Assembly: GCA_024628785.1 (NCBI GenBank)
Contig: CP102405.1
Coordinates: 992,001-1,056,000 of the forward strand
DNA: 64,000 nt
DNA from: Fusobacteria bacterium ZRK30
GTDB taxonomy: Bacteria; Fusobacteriota; Fusobacteriia; Fusobacteriales; Fusobacteriaceae
Direction: 5' to 3'
Position numbers and translations under genes: made by a program. Shown one piece after another: positions 38,151 to 54,170 of this stretch (positions within the stretch are counted from its first letter, which is position 1; every line of letters begins with the position of its first letter). The notes under the pieces were generated by a model. The model was given only the letters and a program-made list of their open reading frames with translations. It did not search any database and was not told the DNA's origin.

Positions 38151-41100
38151 ATGGCTAAAACTATGCAAACAATGGACGGAAACCAAGCTGCAGCGTGGGT
38201 ATCATACGCATTCACAGAAGTAGCAGGGATCTATCCTATAACACCATCATCACCAATGGCAGAATACACTGATCAATGGGCAGCTCAAGGTAAGAAAAAC
38301 TTATTCGGAGTACCTGTAAAGTTAGTAGAAATGCAATCGGAAGCAGGAGCAGCAGGATCAGTTCATGGAGCGTTACAAGCAGGAGCTTTAACGACTACTT
38401 ATACAGCATCACAAGGATTATTATTAAAAATACCTAACATGTATAAGATCGCTGGAGAATTATTACCTTCAGTAATCCATGTATCAGCTAGATCATTATC
38501 AGCTCAAGCATTATCTATATTTGGAGATCACTCAGATATATATGCTGCAAGACAAACTGGTTATGCAATGTTGGCCTCTGGATCTGTACAAGAAGTAATG
38601 GACCTTGCAGGTGTGGCTCATTTAGCAACATTTAAAACAAGAGTACCTTTCATGCATTTCTTCGACGGTTTCAGAACTTCACATGAAATCAACAAAGTAG
38701 AAGTAATGGATTATGCAGATTTAGATAGATTATTAGATAGAGATGCTGTTCAAGCATTCAGAGATAGAGCAATCAACCCTCATCACCCAGTGACTAGAGG
38801 AACAGCTCAAAACGATGACGTTTATTTCCAAGCTAGAGAAGCTCAAAATAAATATTATGATGCAGTACCAGCAGCAGTTTTAGAATATATGGAAGAAATT
38901 TCAAAGATTACAGGAAGAGAATATAAGCCATTTACTTACTATGGAGCAGCAGATGCTGAAAGAGTAGTAGTAGCTATGGGATCAGTTACAGAGACTATCA
39001 AAGAAACTGTAGATCATTTAGTGGCATCAGGAGAAAAAGTAGGATTATTAACTGTTCACTTATACAGACCATTCTCTGCTGAGTACTTCATGAACGTTTT
39101 ACCTAAGACAGTTAAGTCAATATCTGTATTAGATAGAACTAAAGAACCTGGAGCAAACGGAGAACCTTTATACCTTGACGTAGTTGAGTTATTCAAAGAT
39201 GACAAAAATGCACCAAAAATCATTGGAGGAAGATACGGATTATCTTCTAAAGATACTACACCTGCTCAAATAGTAGCTGTATTTGAAAATGCAAAAATAG
39301 ATACTCCTAAAGAAGGATTCACAGTAGGAATTATCGATGACGTTACTCACTTATCATTACCAGTAGGAGAAGCTGTATCAGTAGTTGCTGATAATGTAAA
39401 AGAATGTTTATTCTTCGGGTTAGGATCTGACGGTACTGTAGGAGCTAACAAAAACTCAATCAAAATCATAGGAGACAAGACTGATCTTTATGCTCAAGCT
39501 TACTTCGCATATGATTCAAAGAAATCTGGAGGAGTTACTAGATCTCATTTAAGATTCGGTAAAGACCCTATCAGATCAACTTACTTAATCAACAGACCTT
39601 CATTCGTAGCATGTTCTACACCATCTTACTTAGGTAAGTATGACATGACAAGTGGATTAAAAAAAGGTGGATCATTCTTATTAAACTGTGTATGGGATGC
39701 AGAGGAAACTGTTGCAAACTTACCTAACTCAGTTAAGATTAAGTTAGCTAAAGCAGAAGCTAAGTTATTCATCATCAATGCAAATAAATTAGCAGTTGAA
39801 TTAGGATTAGGAAACAGAACTAACACAATAATGCAATCTGCATTCTTTAAATTAGCTAACGTAATTCCATTTGCAGAAGCTCAAGAATATATGAAAGAGT
39901 ATACTTATAAGTCATACATCAAAAAAGGTCAAGATATCGTTGACATGAACTACAACGCAATTGATAAAGGAGCAGACGAGTTAGTAGAAGTTACTGTAGA
40001 TCCAGCTTGGATCAACTTAGTACATGAAACAGCTGAAGACGCTTACAAAGGTTCTGCATTCGTAGAAAAAATTGCTAAGCCAATAAACGCTATCAAAGGA
40101 TATGATTTACCAGTATCTGCATTTGACGGATATGAAGATGGTACATTTGAAAATGGAACTACAGCATTTGAAAAAAGAGGGGTAGCAGTAAACGTACCTC
40201 AATGGATTCCTGAAAACTGTATCCAATGTAACCAATGTTCATTTGTTTGTCCACATGCAGTAATCAGACCTTTCTTAATTAATGAAGAAGAAAAAGCTAA
40301 TGGACCAGAAGATATGAAAACTTTAAAAGTTATCGGAAAAGCTGACGGTGTAGAATACAGATTACAAGTTTCACCACTTGACTGTACTGGTTGTGGAGTA
40401 TGTGCAAACGTATGTCCAGCACCTAAAGGAAAAGCATTAGTTATGACTCCAATTGCTGAAGTTATGCCTGAGCAAAAATTCGCTGATTTCTTATTCAACG
40501 AAGTAACTTACAAGAAAGAAATCATGGGAACTGCAAATGTTAAAACTTCTCAATTTGCACAACCTTTATTCGAATTCCATGGGGCATGTGCTGGTTGTGG
40601 AGAAACTCCATATATCAAGTTAATCACTCAATTATTCGGAGATAGAATGATGGTAGCAAACGCTACTGGTTGTTCATCAATATACGGTGGATCAGCTCCA
40701 TCAACTCCTTACTGTACAAACGGTTGCGGAGAAGGTCCAGCTTGGGCATCATCATTATTTGAAGATAATGCAGAGTTCGGATATGGAATGCACGTTGCTG
40801 TAGAAGCATTAAGAGATAGATTAGAAGTAGAAATGGAAAAAATCATGGATAAAGTTACTCCAGAAGTAGCAGAATTATTCAAAGAATGGATTGAAAACAG
40901 AACTGATGGAGAGAAAACTCAAGAGATCAGAACTAAGTTATTACCATTAATCGAAGGTAATGAAGACGCTAAAGAAGTAACATCATTAAAAGACTACATC
41001 ACTAAGAAATCACAATGGATCTTCGGTGGAGACGGTTGGGCAAATGACATCGGTTACGGTGGAATAGATCACGTTTTAGCTACATCTGATGATATCAACA

Positions 41101-41675
41101 TCTTAGTAATGGATACAGAGATGTACTCAAATACTGGTGGACAAGCATCAAAAGCATCACCAACTGGATCAGTAGTTAAGTTTGCTGCAGCTGGAATGCC
41201 ATTAAAGAAGAAAGATTTAGCTGCTATCTGCATGTCTTATGGACATATCTATGTAGCTCAAGTATCTATGGGTGGAAGTCAAGCTCAATACTTAAAAGCT
41301 GTTAAAGAAGCAGAAGCTCATAAAGGACCATCTATCATCATTGCATATGCTCCTTGTATCTCACATGGTGTAAGAAAAGGTATGGGTCACTCTCAAACAG
41401 AGATGAAGTTAGCTACTGAATGTGGTTACTGGCCATTATTCAGATTTGATCCTAAATTAGAATTAGAAGGTAAGAACCCATTACAAATCGATTCTAAAGA
41501 ACCTAACTGGGACAAATATGAAGAGTTCTTATTAGGAGAGACTAGATACTTAACATTAACTAAGTCTAATCCTGAAAGAGCAAAAGAATTATTCGCTAAG
41601 AATAAAGCAGAAGCTGCAAAGAAAATAAGACACTATAAGAGATTAGCTGCACTTGACTATTCTCAAGGTCTATAA
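38151..41675 (+). CDS. nifJ: Pyruvate:ferredoxin (flavodoxin) oxidoreductase
   Basis: A single-chain PFOR of 1174 residues, normal length. It oxidises pyruvate with CoA to acetyl-CoA, CO2 and reduced ferredoxin. Order: domain I with AAAWVSYAFTEVAGIYPITPSSPMAE; domains II-IV including the CoA site region; an 8Fe ferredoxin domain with CIQCNQCSFVCPHA and CTGCGVCANVCPAP (about residues 690-765); and the thiamine-diphosphate domain with CAGCGETPYIKL, GDGWANDIGYGGIDHVLA and TEMYSNTGGQASKASPTG. Codon bias is the strongest in the window. With pta and ackA just upstream it forms the acetate/ATP branch. The oxygen-sensitive enzyme points to anaerobic life. Confidence 0.98.
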   Translation: MAKTMQTMDGNQAAAWVSYAFTEVAGIYPITPSSPMAEYTDQWAAQGKKNLFGVPVKLVEMQSEAGAAGSVHGALQAGALTTTYTASQGLLLKIPNMYKIAGELLPSVIHVSARSLSAQALSIFGDHSDIYAARQTGYAMLASGSVQEVMDLAGVAHLATFKTRVPFMHFFDGFRTSHEINKVEVMDYADLDRLLDRDAVQAFRDRAINPHHPVTRGTAQNDDVYFQAREAQNKYYDAVPAAVLEYMEEISKITGREYKPFTYYGAADAERVVVAMGSVTETIKETVDHLVASGEKVGLLTVHLYRPFSAEYFMNVLPKTVKSISVLDRTKEPGANGEPLYLDVVELFKDDKNAPKIIGGRYGLSSKDTTPAQIVAVFENAKIDTPKEGFTVGIIDDVTHLSLPVGEAVSVVADNVKECLFFGLGSDGTVGANKNSIKIIGDKTDLYAQAYFAYDSKKSGGVTRSHLRFGKDPIRSTYLINRPSFVACSTPSYLGKYDMTSGLKKGGSFLLNCVWDAEETVANLPNSVKIKLAKAEAKLFIINANKLAVELGLGNRTNTIMQSAFFKLANVIPFAEAQEYMKEYTYKSYIKKGQDIVDMNYNAIDKGADELVEVTVDPAWINLVHETAEDAYKGSAFVEKIAKPINAIKGYDLPVSAFDGYEDGTFENGTTAFEKRGVAVNVPQWIPENCIQCNQCSFVCPHAVIRPFLINEEEKANGPEDMKTLKVIGKADGVEYRLQVSPLDCTGCGVCANVCPAPKGKALVMTPIAEVMPEQKFADFLFNEVTYKKEIMGTANVKTSQFAQPLFEFHGACAGCGETPYIKLITQLFGDRMMVANATGCSSIYGGSAPSTPYCTNGCGEGPAWASSLFEDNAEFGYGMHVAVEALRDRLEVEMEKIMDKVTPEVAELFKEWIENRTDGEKTQEIRTKLLPLIEGNEDAKEVTSLKDYITKKSQWIFGGDGWANDIGYGGIDHVLATSDDINILVMDTEMYSNTGGQASKASPTGSVVKFAAAGMPLKKKDLAAICMSYGHIYVAQVSMGGSQAQYLKAVKEAEAHKGPSIIIAYAPCISHGVRKGMGHSQTEMKLATECGYWPLFRFDPKLELEGKNPLQIDSKEPNWDKYEEFLLGETRYLTLTKSNPERAKELFAKNKAEAAKKIRHYKRLAALDYSQGL

Positions 41676-50161: not shown

Positions 50162-51835
50162 ATGTTCGGGCTTGTTGGAAATCTAATAAATAGTTTGGGT
50201 TATATCATAACGATAGCATTTTTCCTATCGAGGGCTAGGGGATTCAAACGATTAATAAAAAAAGAAAAATATACAAAACTAGATATGGTATTATTATCTC
50301 TAATATTTTCTGTACTTGCTATAGGTGGAACCTATATGGGAACAGATTATAATGGTGCCATAGCCAATACTAGAAATATCAGTGTAGTTGTAGCAGCGAT
50401 TATAGGGGGACCTATGATCGGACTTATCACAGGATTAACTGCAGGGATCCACAGGATCATGATAGATCCCTATGGAATAACGGCAATTCCCTGTGGCATA
50501 GCCACTTTTTTAGGGGGCTGGGGACTGGGATACTTAAATAAACTCAATGTAAAAAATAAATATATATTGGGGTTTATAGGTGGAATTATTATTGAAAATA
50601 TCAGTATGGGATTGATATTACTCATGTCAAAACCATTTTATCTGGCTTTAAATATAGTAGAAACTATATATTTTCCTATGGTTTTAGTAAATGCTTTGGG
50701 AGTAGCCATCGTAATATTAATAACAGAAAATATGATGCTGGAAGAAGACAGGGTAGCAGGGGAAGAGGCTAGGTTAGTTTTGGAGATAGCTAATAAAACA
50801 TTGCCATATTTTAGAGATGTAAATAATGATTCGTTAAAAAATGTATGCAGGACTATACTGGAATCTTTAGGTGCTAAAATAGTGGTATTTACCGATATGG
50901 AAGATATAATTTCATATTGTGCCCAGGATGAGAAATATGAAATAACGCATACAAAGATTCGAGGGAATGTCACAAAGGAAGTGCTTAGAACAGGGAAGTT
51001 TAGAATGGTTAACAAGGATGACGAGGAAGAGAGAAAATTAGATTGTATCTCTGAGGATATTATTTCATTTATAATAGTACCACTCAAATCAGGAACTGAA
51101 GTAACTGGGGCATTAAAAGTTTATTTTTCGGAAAACTCTTATATATCGGAAAGAAATAAAAACCTAGTTCTGGGATTATCTGAGCTTATATCGACCCAGC
51201 TGGAGATAAGCAGGATAAAAAAGCTGGAGGAGATGGCCAGAGATGCAGAGATAAAAGCGTTACAAACTCAAATCAATCCGCATTTTTTATTCAATGCACT
51301 AAATACAATAACCTCTTTTGTGAGAATAGACCCTATTCAGGCCAGGAGTACAATTATTGATCTGGCGACCTATCTCAGATACAATTTGGACAATGGAAAT
51401 AAACCTGTGGATATAGTTATGGAATTAGAGCAGGTAAAAGCCTATGTGAATATAGAAAAAGCAAGATTTTATGATAAAATAAATATGCACTATGAGATAG
51501 ATGAAGATGTTAAACTGGTAAAGATACCAAGTTTGACAATTCAGCCCCTGGTAGAAAATGCAATACAGCACGGGCTTTTAAATGGAACAGGGGGAAAGGA
51601 TATCTACCTCAAAATATACAGAGTAGATAAAAATAAAATACGTGTGATCATAGAAAATAATGGTAGGAGTATAGACCAGGAAGTGATCGATAAAATATAT
51701 AGCGATAGCATTGAAAGCAGTAAGATAGGTCTTTATAATGTACATCGAAGGATAAAATTGATCTATGGAAAGGGATTGGATATAGAAAAATTAGAGGAGG
51801 GAACAAGGATAACTTTTGATATCAGGGGGGAATAA
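50162..51835 (+). CDS. LytS/BtsS-type sensor histidine kinase
   Basis: A 557-residue membrane kinase. Residues 1-190 hold the 5TMR-LYT membrane domain (NLINSLGYIITIAFFLSRARGF, GGTYMGTDYNGAIANTRNISVVVAAIIGG, GLTAGIHRIMIDPYGITAIPCGIATFLGG). A GAF-like domain follows at about 225-350, then a His_kinase domain with LQTQINPHFLFNALNTITSF near 375 (phospho-His in the PHFLFN motif) and an HATPase with PLVENAIQHGLLNGTGG. Relatives BtsS and YpdA sense pyruvate. It overlaps the response-regulator gene by one base. Confidence 0.94.
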   Translation: MFGLVGNLINSLGYIITIAFFLSRARGFKRLIKKEKYTKLDMVLLSLIFSVLAIGGTYMGTDYNGAIANTRNISVVVAAIIGGPMIGLITGLTAGIHRIMIDPYGITAIPCGIATFLGGWGLGYLNKLNVKNKYILGFIGGIIIENISMGLILLMSKPFYLALNIVETIYFPMVLVNALGVAIVILITENMMLEEDRVAGEEARLVLEIANKTLPYFRDVNNDSLKNVCRTILESLGAKIVVFTDMEDIISYCAQDEKYEITHTKIRGNVTKEVLRTGKFRMVNKDDEEERKLDCISEDIISFIIVPLKSGTEVTGALKVYFSENSYISERNKNLVLGLSELISTQLEISRIKKLEEMARDAEIKALQTQINPHFLFNALNTITSFVRIDPIQARSTIIDLATYLRYNLDNGNKPVDIVMELEQVKAYVNIEKARFYDKINMHYEIDEDVKLVKIPSLTIQPLVENAIQHGLLNGTGGKDIYLKIYRVDKNKIRVIIENNGRSIDQEVIDKIYSDSIESSKIGLYNVHRRIKLIYGKGLDIEKLEEGTRITFDIRGE

Positions 51836-52551
51836 TGAAGTGTATAATAATTGATGATGAATATCCGGCAAGGATGGAGCTACGATATTTTATAGAAAAA
51901 TATGAAGAGTTAGAGATTGTAGGAGAGTTTGAAGATTCTATGTCAGCGCTTAATTTTTTTGAAAAAAATAGTGTGGATATAATCTTTTTAGATATAAATA
52001 TGCCAAATATGAATGGGATGGTCTTAGCTAAATTAATATCGAAATTTGAAATAAAACCACAGATTATATTTATCACTGCATATGGTGAATATGCAGTGGA
52101 TGCTTTCAGTATAAAAGCTTTTGACTATATATTAAAACCATATTCTGAGGAGAGGATAATAAAAACCTTAGATAGTTTAATAGAAAAAAACATAGAAGAA
52201 AAACCTAAGGAAGAGAAGAGTATCAACAGACTGACTTTGTGGAAGGGGGAAAAGATGTATGTTTTATCACTGGATGAAATCTATATTTTTGAAGCCTGTG
52301 AAAGGGAAACTAAGGTATATGCCAAGGGTGAAATATATTTTTCCAAACAGAAAATATCTGATTTGGAGGGAGAGCTGCCAAATATATTTTTCAGAACCCA
52401 CAGATCATATATAGTGAATATAAATAAGATAAAAGAAATAATACCCTGGTTTAACAGTACGTATAACCTAAAGATAGAGGATTTGGATGTAGAAGTTCCT
52501 GTGAGCCGGAATAAGATAAAAGAATTTCGAACTTTATTGAATATAAAATAG
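51835..52551 (+). CDS. LytTR-family response regulator (LytR/BtsR/YpdB-type)
   Basis: A 238-residue regulator. The receiver domain has IIDDEYPARMEL near residue 4 and the phospho-acceptor Asp in DIIFLDINMPNMNGM near 54, with the conserved Lys in DYILKPYSEERI near 103. The LytTR DNA-binding domain covers about 135-238 (IFFRTHRSYIVNINKIKEIIPWFNSTYNLKIED). It is paired with the upstream kinase through a one-base overlap and lies before cstA, whose promoter region holds fitting repeats. Confidence 0.95.
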   Translation: MKCIIIDDEYPARMELRYFIEKYEELEIVGEFEDSMSALNFFEKNSVDIIFLDINMPNMNGMVLAKLISKFEIKPQIIFITAYGEYAVDAFSIKAFDYILKPYSEERIIKTLDSLIEKNIEEKPKEEKSINRLTLWKGEKMYVLSLDEIYIFEACERETKVYAKGEIYFSKQKISDLEGELPNIFFRTHRSYIVNINKIKEIIPWFNSTYNLKIEDLDVEVPVSRNKIKEFRTLLNIK

Positions 52552-52613: not shown

Positions 52614-52691
52614 TGCATTTCATGACGAATATTTGTATTTAATGTTTGGAATTTTGTATTTTATCTCCAAATTACACCTTGAATCTATAAT
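52614..52691 (+). promoter_or_regulatory. cstA promoter with three LytTR-type direct repeats
   Basis: TGCATTTCAT (52614-52623), TGTATTTAAT (52634-52643) and TGTATTTTAT (52655-52664) repeat with 20-21-base spacing. The -10 TATAAT follows at 52686-52691, with no good -35, as expected for an activator-dependent promoter. The first box differs in one base from the published YpdB half-site GGCATTTCAT (recalled from literature). Confidence 0.65.
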
Positions 52692-52742
52692 AGATGTATA
52701 ATAATCATATCAAATATATTAAATTTATTTTAGGAGGACGAT

Positions 52743-54170
52743 ATGATTACTTTTTTAGTATCGATAGTTTTATTAGTTTTAGGTCATCTTTTTTATGGAA
52801 AATTTGTTGAGAAGGTATTTGGAGTAGATCCAAAAGCGAAAACACCAGCAATTAAGTTAGAGGATGGAGTAGACTTTATACCATTACCAGGTTGGAAAAT
52901 ATTTATGATTCAATTCTTAAATATTGCAGGATTAGGACCAATATTTGGAGCCATTGCAGGAGCTTTATTTGGACCGGTAGCATTTATATGGATTGTAATT
53001 GGATCAATATTTGCAGGTGGAGTACATGACTATATGTCAGGGATGTTATCACTTAGGAATGACGGTAGATCAGTACCGGAATTAGTCGGAAAATATTTAG
53101 GACAACCTTATAGAATGGCAATGAGAGTTATATCTGTAGTACTTTTAGTATTAGTAGGAGTAGTATTTGTAGCAGGACCTGCAACTATCTTACATGGATT
53201 AACAGGATTAAATGTACAAGTATTGATCTACATCATATTCGCTTACTATTTAATAGCAACATTAGTACCGGTAGATAAGATAATAGCTAAGATCTATCCA
53301 TTGTTTGGAGCAGCGTTGTTATTCATGGCAGCTGGTGTAGGAGTAATGTTATTTGTAGGAGGATTTGAGATCCCTGAATTATTTGGAAATATAACAAATA
53401 TGCAAGCAGCACCTATGAAAACTCCTATATTCCCAATGTTATTTATCACAATAGCATGTGGAGCAATATCAGGATTCCATTCAACTCAATCACCACTTAT
53501 GGCAAGATGTTTAACTAATGAAAAGCAAGGTAGAAGTGTATTCTATGGTTCTATGATCGCAGAGGGTGTAGTAGCATTAGTATGGGCAGCAGCAGCAATG
53601 GCATTCTTTGGTGGAGTAAAAGGATTAGCAGGATTTGACGGGAATGCAGCAGCAATTGTAAATGTAATATCTAACTCATTATTAGGAAAAGTTGGAGGAG
53701 CATTGGCAGTATTTGGAGTAGTAGCAGCACCTATCACATCTGGAGATACAGCATTTAGAAGTGCAAGACTTACAATAGCAGATGCACTTAACTTTGAACA
53801 GCACTCTATGAAAAATAGATTATTAGTAGCTATCCCATTATTCGTTATTGGATTCTTCCTTTCAAAGGTAGACTTCAACATTGTATGGAGATATTTCGGA
53901 TTCACTAACCAATTGATCGCAACTATCGTATTATGGACTTCTACAGCTTACTTTGTAAGAGAAAAGAAAAACTTCTGGATTACATATATTCCGGCAGTAT
54001 TCATGACATCTGTGTGTATCGCATTCATAATGATGGCACCGATTGGATTTGGATTACCAGTAATGATGTCTAAGTATGCAGGAATTGCTTTAGCAATAGT
54101 TATCGGAGTAGTATTCTTAGCAGTAAAAGATAAGGTATACAATAAAGAAGGTAAAAAAGTAACAGCATAA
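52743..54170 (+). CDS. cstA: CstA-family transporter (probable pyruvate/peptide symporter)
   Basis: A 475-residue integral membrane protein with about 14 helices. GWKIFMIQFLNIAGLGPIFGAIAGALFGPVAFIWIVIGSIFAGGVHDYMSGML segments are a hallmark of CstA. ITIACGAISGFHSTQSPLMARCL and FGVVAAPITSGDTAFRSARLTIAD also match. It is the short form, lacking the C-terminal extension of E. coli CstA. BtsT and CstA of E. coli import pyruvate. Linkage to a LytSR-type system and to PFOR metabolism supports pyruvate uptake here (inference). AGGAGG precedes the ATG. Confidence 0.92.
   Translation: MITFLVSIVLLVLGHLFYGKFVEKVFGVDPKAKTPAIKLEDGVDFIPLPGWKIFMIQFLNIAGLGPIFGAIAGALFGPVAFIWIVIGSIFAGGVHDYMSGMLSLRNDGRSVPELVGKYLGQPYRMAMRVISVVLLVLVGVVFVAGPATILHGLTGLNVQVLIYIIFAYYLIATLVPVDKIIAKIYPLFGAALLFMAAGVGVMLFVGGFEIPELFGNITNMQAAPMKTPIFPMLFITIACGAISGFHSTQSPLMARCLTNEKQGRSVFYGSMIAEGVVALVWAAAAMAFFGGVKGLAGFDGNAAAIVNVISNSLLGKVGGALAVFGVVAAPITSGDTAFRSARLTIADALNFEQHSMKNRLLVAIPLFVIGFFLSKVDFNIVWRYFGFTNQLIATIVLWTSTAYFVREKKNFWITYIPAVFMTSVCIAFIMMAPIGFGLPVMMSKYAGIALAIVIGVVFLAVKDKVYNKEGKKVTA

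Follow-up and report, generated by a model that had tools for sequence, protein, structure and literature searches.

The closest described counterparts of the locus reported here are two E. coli systems: PyrS/PyrR (YpdA/YpdB), which apparently has a single target array, at the gene for the MFS protein YhjX, and BtsS/BtsR (YehU/YehT), a LytS/LytTR pair controlling the CstA-family transporter BtsT. A LytS-type pair of Bacillus subtilis, LytS/LytT, is reportedly tied to pftAB. The product of these genes, PftAB, is a pyruvate transporter (PMC5626966), so here too a LytS-type pair is connected to a transporter, although PftAB, unlike the CstA protein considered below, is hetero-oligomeric and holin-like. 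For YpdB, the published oligonucleotide has the form GGCATTTCAT-N11-GGCATTTCAT, corresponding to a period of 21 bp, and phosphomimetic YpdB was described to bind cooperatively on two sites (PMC4847170). A comparative study of these systems (PMC5552118) is confined to gamma-proteobacteria, the terms Firmicutes, Fusobacteri and Clostridi being absent from its available text. Of its five species, three are credited with YpdB motifs; Serratia marcescens and Aeromonas hydrophila are those for which it identified none. With the matrix used in the present work, box pairs are found in Serratia and in other Aeromonas loci. In the titles and abstract openings of the open-access papers listed by the literature searches, no operator of the PyrR type is described, either at cstA or for Fusobacteriota.

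The window analyzed here is a stretch of 64,000 nucleotides from the 3.6-Mb genome of Fusobacteria bacterium ZRK30. It carries a sensor kinase gene, a response regulator gene and a cstA gene in tandem, with the following features.

50162-51835, plus strand: LytS-type sensor histidine kinase, PyrS-like, with Pfam matches 5TM-5TMR_LYT, GAF (slightly below the Pfam cut-offs), His_kinase and HATPase_c
51835-52551, plus strand: LytTR response regulator, PyrR/YpdB-like, with Pfam receiver and LytTR domains; proposed box-binding activator
52614-52623, plus strand: box 1, TGCATTTCAT, exact match to TGYATTTNAT, kept within the genus
52634-52643, plus strand: box 2, TGTATTTAAT, exact match to TGYATTTNAT, invariant in all six aligned genomes of the genus
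52655-52664, plus strand: box 3, TGTATTTTAT, the last box, exact match, starting 42 bp before the conserved -10
52674-52679, plus strand: -35 slot, ACACCT, no match to the consensus, placed from the -10 position with a 17-bp spacer
52697-52702, plus strand: conserved -10, TATAAT in five of six genomes of the genus and TACAAT in the sixth, at an offset that is conserved elsewhere
52732-52737, plus strand: cstA ribosome-binding site, AGGAGG, assigned from the sequence
52743-54170, plus strand: cstA, encoding a 475-aa CstA-family transporter (Pfam PF02554, E 1e-61, 209.8 bits against a cut-off of 27); proposed target

Kinase and regulator have the same domain order as PyrS and PyrR, and comparison places both on the PyrS/PyrR side. 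The kinase aligns with 39% identity to E. coli PyrS vs 29% to BtsS, while BLASTP gives the regulator 47% identity to PyrR (YpdB) but merely 31% to BtsR. In a tree of 63 regulators, the window's regulator and E. coli PyrR share a 47-row clade with a support of 100/100, BtsR falling outside; some of the outermost lineages have long branches and an uncertain branching order. Among the NCBIfam matches listed for the regulator there is no PyrR model; the best is BtsR, below its cut-off. When solved structures were searched for residues in contact with DNA, the LytTR part gave a weak match to AgrA (E about 0.1). Three genomes of genus g9 (L051-L053) carry a second, more distant LytTR regulator of about 40% identity, and the one of these included in the tree lies outside the PyrR clade.

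The locus resembles BtsS/BtsR-btsT in that a LytS/LytTR pair is joined to a CstA-family transporter, but it differs in regulator clade and in operator, the YehT (BtsR) site of the yjiY control oligonucleotide being unlike TGCATTTCAT (PMC4847170). The transporters differ as well: BtsT is a long form, and the window's CstA is short (475 vs 701 aa) and resembles E. coli CstA and BtsT weakly and over part of its length. With PyrS/PyrR, on the other hand, the locus shares, besides domain make-up and regulator placement, GGCATTTCAT-like repeats with a period of 21 bp and, apparently, the restriction to one target array. The initial annotation had noted a likeness to the half-site and spacing of YpdB, and both hold: box 1 differs from GGCATTTCAT in one of 10 bases. 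Differences from the E. coli system are that the array lies at cstA rather than at yhjX, that it comprises three boxes vs two, and that the regulator genes adjoin the target. The window's system is thus best described as one of the PyrSR type in regulator and operator, with CstA in place of YhjX as the coupled transporter.

All three boxes lie in the 191-bp gap between regulator and cstA, and, as first annotated, they are exact copies of TGYATTTNAT starting at 52614, 52634 and 52655, hence with spacings of 20 and 21. Box 3 is weaker (GGTGTTT) in two of the six genomes of the genus. Both strands of the window together hold five exact matches, three of which make up the array. A single match says little, because the AT-rich genome has 282 of them vs 106 for the reversed control; within the window, boxes with at most one mismatch number 134 against 91 expected. 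The spaced pair is far more discriminating. When the genome was searched for the motif, a check already suggested with the first annotation, TGYATTTNAT-N10,11-TGYATTTNAT matched twice, both times in the cstA array, and its reversed control not at all. A degenerate pair pattern, applied genome-wide in search of further regulon members, gave 48 matches vs 37 for the reversed control and is therefore unable to name more targets; the strict pattern names the cstA promoter only. Two pairs elsewhere in this genome may be mentioned. One, GCATTTAAT / GCATTTCAT, has a period of 22 bp (G000:C3:40140-40170) and is possibly a second target missed by the strict pattern. The other is a related pair with a period of 16 bp (G000:C1:477856-477881), about 2 kb from another LytTR gene (L003).

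Across 98 genomes of the phylum Fusobacteriota, searches identified the regulator in 47 and CstA in 74. In the window's family (61 genomes), regulator and cstA occur together in 47, cstA alone in six and neither in eight; the regulator never occurs alone. Promoters were scored with a box matrix seeded by the published YpdB site alone, iterated, and applied by leaving out one genus at a time. The 90 cstA rows yielded upstream DNA for 89, the second half of a split gene in G037 being omitted, and 87 were scored, the upstream DNA of L087 and L099 being too short. Where a fusobacterial genome has the regulator, the promoter of its primary cstA gene shows a triple box with periods of 20-22 in 46 of 46 scored cases (score 14.0-34.4, median 21.6), while the 41 control cstA promoters score at most 12.4, each of them below all of these 46. 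These controls consist of 27 cstA genes from regulator-less genomes (22 from another family, five from the window's family) and 14 cstA paralogues from regulator-bearing genomes. Only periods around 21 separate the two sets, and shuffled promoters put through the same procedure have medians of 5.5-7.7. Rank tests gave values of 1e-8 and 7e-13, which ignore kinship; because the genomes are related, 46/46 does not represent 46 independent events, and the count per genus is 13/13. With a matrix from the window's genus, g1, only and 300 shuffles per promoter, p ≤ 0.01 was reached in 23 of the 46 promoters, six of them from that genus. The remaining promoters were weak in this test, which the pooled leave-one-genus-out matrix replaced, and for promoters that individually lie above p 0.01 the signal depends on the pooled matrix.

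Box position follows cstA, whatever the arrangement of the genes. The lytSR-cstA tandem of the window recurs across genera g1, g7, g8, g10 and g11, whereas genera g2, g4, g5 and g6 have lytS and cstA in divergent orientation. In g3, regulator and cstA converge; in g9 and g14 they are widely separated, and in g12 they sit on separate contigs. In every one of these arrangements the boxes precede cstA. Three genera, g2, g3 and g12, are mixed, and their regulator-less genomes are also without boxes (G002 vs G003; G015 vs other g3; G049 and G050 vs G048), the absence of the regulator being less certain in two of these four genomes because they are 82-85% complete. Extra cstA copies in g3 and g9 (L088, L089, L094, L129, L131-L138, L140, L142) have no boxes, and these paralogues therefore seem to be controlled otherwise.

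The same boxes are found in other phyla. A genome scan with the regulator alignment returned 80 loci, 31 of them with a CstA or YhjX match, of which 27 were scored; L149, from the window's genus, and L190, L192 and L211, whose regulators are less than 40% identical, were omitted. With a matrix built from fusobacterial cstA promoters only, the top-scoring pair in each of the 27 PyrR-like loci, which belong to Bacillota and Pseudomonadota, falls in front of the linked transporter gene. These pairs score 16.1-29.9, whereas 2802 null windows reach 13.7 at the 99th percentile and 19.4 at most. Two of these loci carry cstA (a Romboutsia MAG and Anaerophilus) and 25 carry yhjX, the latter from Clostridium, Paenibacillus, Saccharibacillus, Cytobacillus, Neobacillus, Aeromonas, Vibrio, Shewanella, Serratia, Yersinia and others. 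The three omitted cstA loci with less similar regulators have no box (best pairs 8.1, 10.8 and 5.7, respectively). In 16 whole-locus scans of PyrR-like loci without an adjacent transporter gene, many of them from Enterobacteriaceae, no score exceeded 20.0.

For a second, larger test on clostridial genomes, one scan returned 59 regulator rows, 30 of which were assigned loci, and together with a further scan it supplied 46 distinct loci for scoring; L254 and L258 are from the genomes of L148 and L147 and are thus also counted among the 27. The maximum of 716 null windows was exceeded by 35 of 38 cstA and four of four yhjX upstream regions. At the three misses (L268, L270, L271), the boxes stand right after the regulator gene, before a small ORF that precedes cstA; in L268, the 111 aa of this ORF that were compared with Pfam gave no match. 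Four clostridial loci lack both transporters and have cstA elsewhere in the genome, and a boxed cstA (25.7-27.1) is present in all four genomes; one tandem cstA copy has no boxes (10.9). Clostridial LytS/LytTR-cstA loci (such as L147, L148, L230-L237) share boxes, -10 offset and CstA target with the window, and the regulators of L147 and L148 fall in the same clade as that of the window. They differ in that they were scored as two boxes and, in three cases, in the small ORF between boxes and cstA. The proposed connection, through the boxes, between the LytS/LytTR pair and the cstA promoter is therefore borne out in 13 fusobacterial genera, and the link extends to Clostridia and Bacilli and, at yhjX, to Proteobacteria, including genomes in which the regulator is unlinked.

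Promoter geometry is conserved along with the boxes. Counted from the first base of the last box, the -10 begins after 42-44 bp in 42 of 46 fusobacterial promoters, against a background of 0.39 per 3-bp window, and the same offset occurs in 19 of 28 promoters from other phyla, E. coli yhjX included (background 0.11). It was also seen in 37 of 42 clostridial promoters, a count that has no background figure and includes three promoters with a misplaced pair. Both the fusobacterial and the other-phyla profile peak at 43, the offset at which E. coli yhjX has a candidate -10 hexamer, TATGGT. The initial annotation had taken the TATAAT at 52686-52691 as the -10 and had let the boxes end at the -35 position, and comparison corrects both points. 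The hexamer at 52686-52691 is TATAAT in merely three of six aligned genomes of the genus, and preference was given to 52697-52702, which is conserved and whose offset is common across genera and phyla. With this -10 and a 17-bp spacer, about 9 bp would separate the end of the array from the -35 slot that follows it. The slot would then lie one 21-bp period past the last box, as if RNA polymerase filled the next place in the array.

Taken together, it is very probably these boxes that the regulator of the neighboring pair binds, and we have considerable confidence in the wider reading, in which a PyrR/YpdB-type operator at cstA connects a metabolite-sensing kinase to cstA activation. According to this model, the membrane kinase would detect a small metabolite outside the cell, pyruvate being the most likely one, and phosphorylate the regulator, which would bind the tandem boxes cooperatively on one face of the helix. 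A poor -35 element follows the array at a distance of one 21-bp period, and bound regulator may recruit RNA polymerase to the -10 at 52697-52702 and so switch on uptake through CstA. Comparison establishes the family of the regulator, the operator, the geometry of the promoter and the joint occurrence of regulator and boxes, whereas the binding as such, activation as opposed to repression, pyruvate as signal and the cargo of CstA are inferred.

Other origins of the array, or other uses of it, have to be weighed against this model. A chance triplet of an AT-rich motif, which the frequency of single boxes in the genome and the surplus of near matches in the window might suggest, can practically be dismissed, since the spaced pair is unique with a control of zero and since the reversed-pattern control, the other periods, the shuffled promoters and the regulator-less controls all speak against it. 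Two further LytTR proteins are encoded in the window's genome, and the boxes could belong to one of these or to some other regulator, the neighboring pair being a bystander. We consider this highly improbable: boxes and window-type regulator are gained and lost together across species, even when unlinked, and the regulator is a relative of PyrR just as the boxes are PyrR boxes. The regulator might also repress cstA from these boxes, or have both roles, given that some LytTR regulators are dual and that BtsR is annotated as a dual regulator in NC_000913. That would be surprising for an array upstream of the -35 slot, followed by a poor -35 and a good -10, as activation would predict, and the same geometry is seen at E. 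coli yhjX, the expression of which is triggered by YpdB (PMC4847170).

The nature of the signal and of the cargo leaves more room for an alternative, in which regulator, operator and target are the same but kinase and transporter deal with another small carboxylate (lactate or a 2-oxoacid) or with peptide or amino-acid availability. Three residues of the BtsS pyruvate site, Arg72, Arg99 and Cys110, are kept in the window's kinase, while Ser113 is replaced by Ala. Among fusobacterial homologues having the respective column, Arg72 is conserved in 43/43, Arg99 in 44/44 and Cys110 in 44/44; of the 44 residues in the Ser113 column, 33 are Ala and 11 are Ser. The two arginines are described as highly conserved in LytS kinases generally (PMC10653868) and, being common to these kinases, are weak evidence. 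In E. coli, S113A abolished the pyruvate response of BtsS, which cuts against a simple transfer of pyruvate sensing to the window's kinase, and such changes in the BtsS site may shift specificity, for instance to lactate (PMC10653868). As to cargo, both pyruvate and peptide transport have been reported for the CstA family, some members being implicated in peptide use (PMC7730263). On the other side, the pyruvate-responsive E. coli PyrS likewise lacks the Ser, having Thr at this position where the window's kinase has Ala, and the nearest characterized regulator is PyrR. We therefore regard a signal and cargo other than pyruvate as a tentative alternative, on the unlikely side, and pyruvate as the plausible signal of the window's kinase and our best guess.

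The idea that the unit feeds pyruvate:ferredoxin oxidoreductase (PFOR) found no support. The PFOR gene of the window (38151-41675; POR_N, POR, PFOR_II, Fer4) lies 11 kb from the array, and a scan of the window revealed no box array upstream of 38151. PFOR was also rejected as a co-regulated gene, the triple matches in its vicinity (14.1-14.9) all falling within the gene. Should pyruvate be the signal, the system would provide external pyruvate sensing in PFOR-carrying fermenters, without a direct link to the control of PFOR. In any case, a testable assignment of regulator, operator and target becomes available for a transporter whose conservation extends over the window's fusobacterial family and many Clostridia.

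Loci of the PyrR clade include both transporters, CstA or YhjX. One side of the clade (24 rows, support 84/74) unites the fusobacterial rows with Anaerophilus (cstA), the fusobacterial CstA label being given by genome and not by adjacency. On the other side (23 rows, 100/96), Romboutsia (cstA) is sister to all yhjX-linked rows, which branch with Clostridium and Bacilli first and Proteobacteria after. The cheapest reading of this tree, in which Clostridia are thinly sampled and the clostridial yhjX-linked loci L260, L261, L263 and L265 are absent, would be that cstA was the original target and that a single exchange to yhjX took place within Bacillota. More broadly, PyrR and its 21-bp-periodic TGCATTTCAT operator may form an old portable switch, found in three phyla at a fixed distance from the -10, that served CstA first and YhjX later, the replacement having arisen within Bacillota and been passed on to Proteobacteria; we judge the case for and against this scenario to be evenly balanced. 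If it is true, E. coli PyrSR-yhjX would be a derived form of the window's system. The comparison suggests that a LytTR regulator is able to retain its DNA site and promoter geometry over three phyla despite a swap of target. Finally, the yhjX promoters of Vibrio, Yersinia and Serratia (L185, L187, L226, L160, L155) have an extra box-like stretch one period downstream (TGCAGCTCATT, TGCAACTCATT), and three-box arrays are therefore not peculiar to the window's family.
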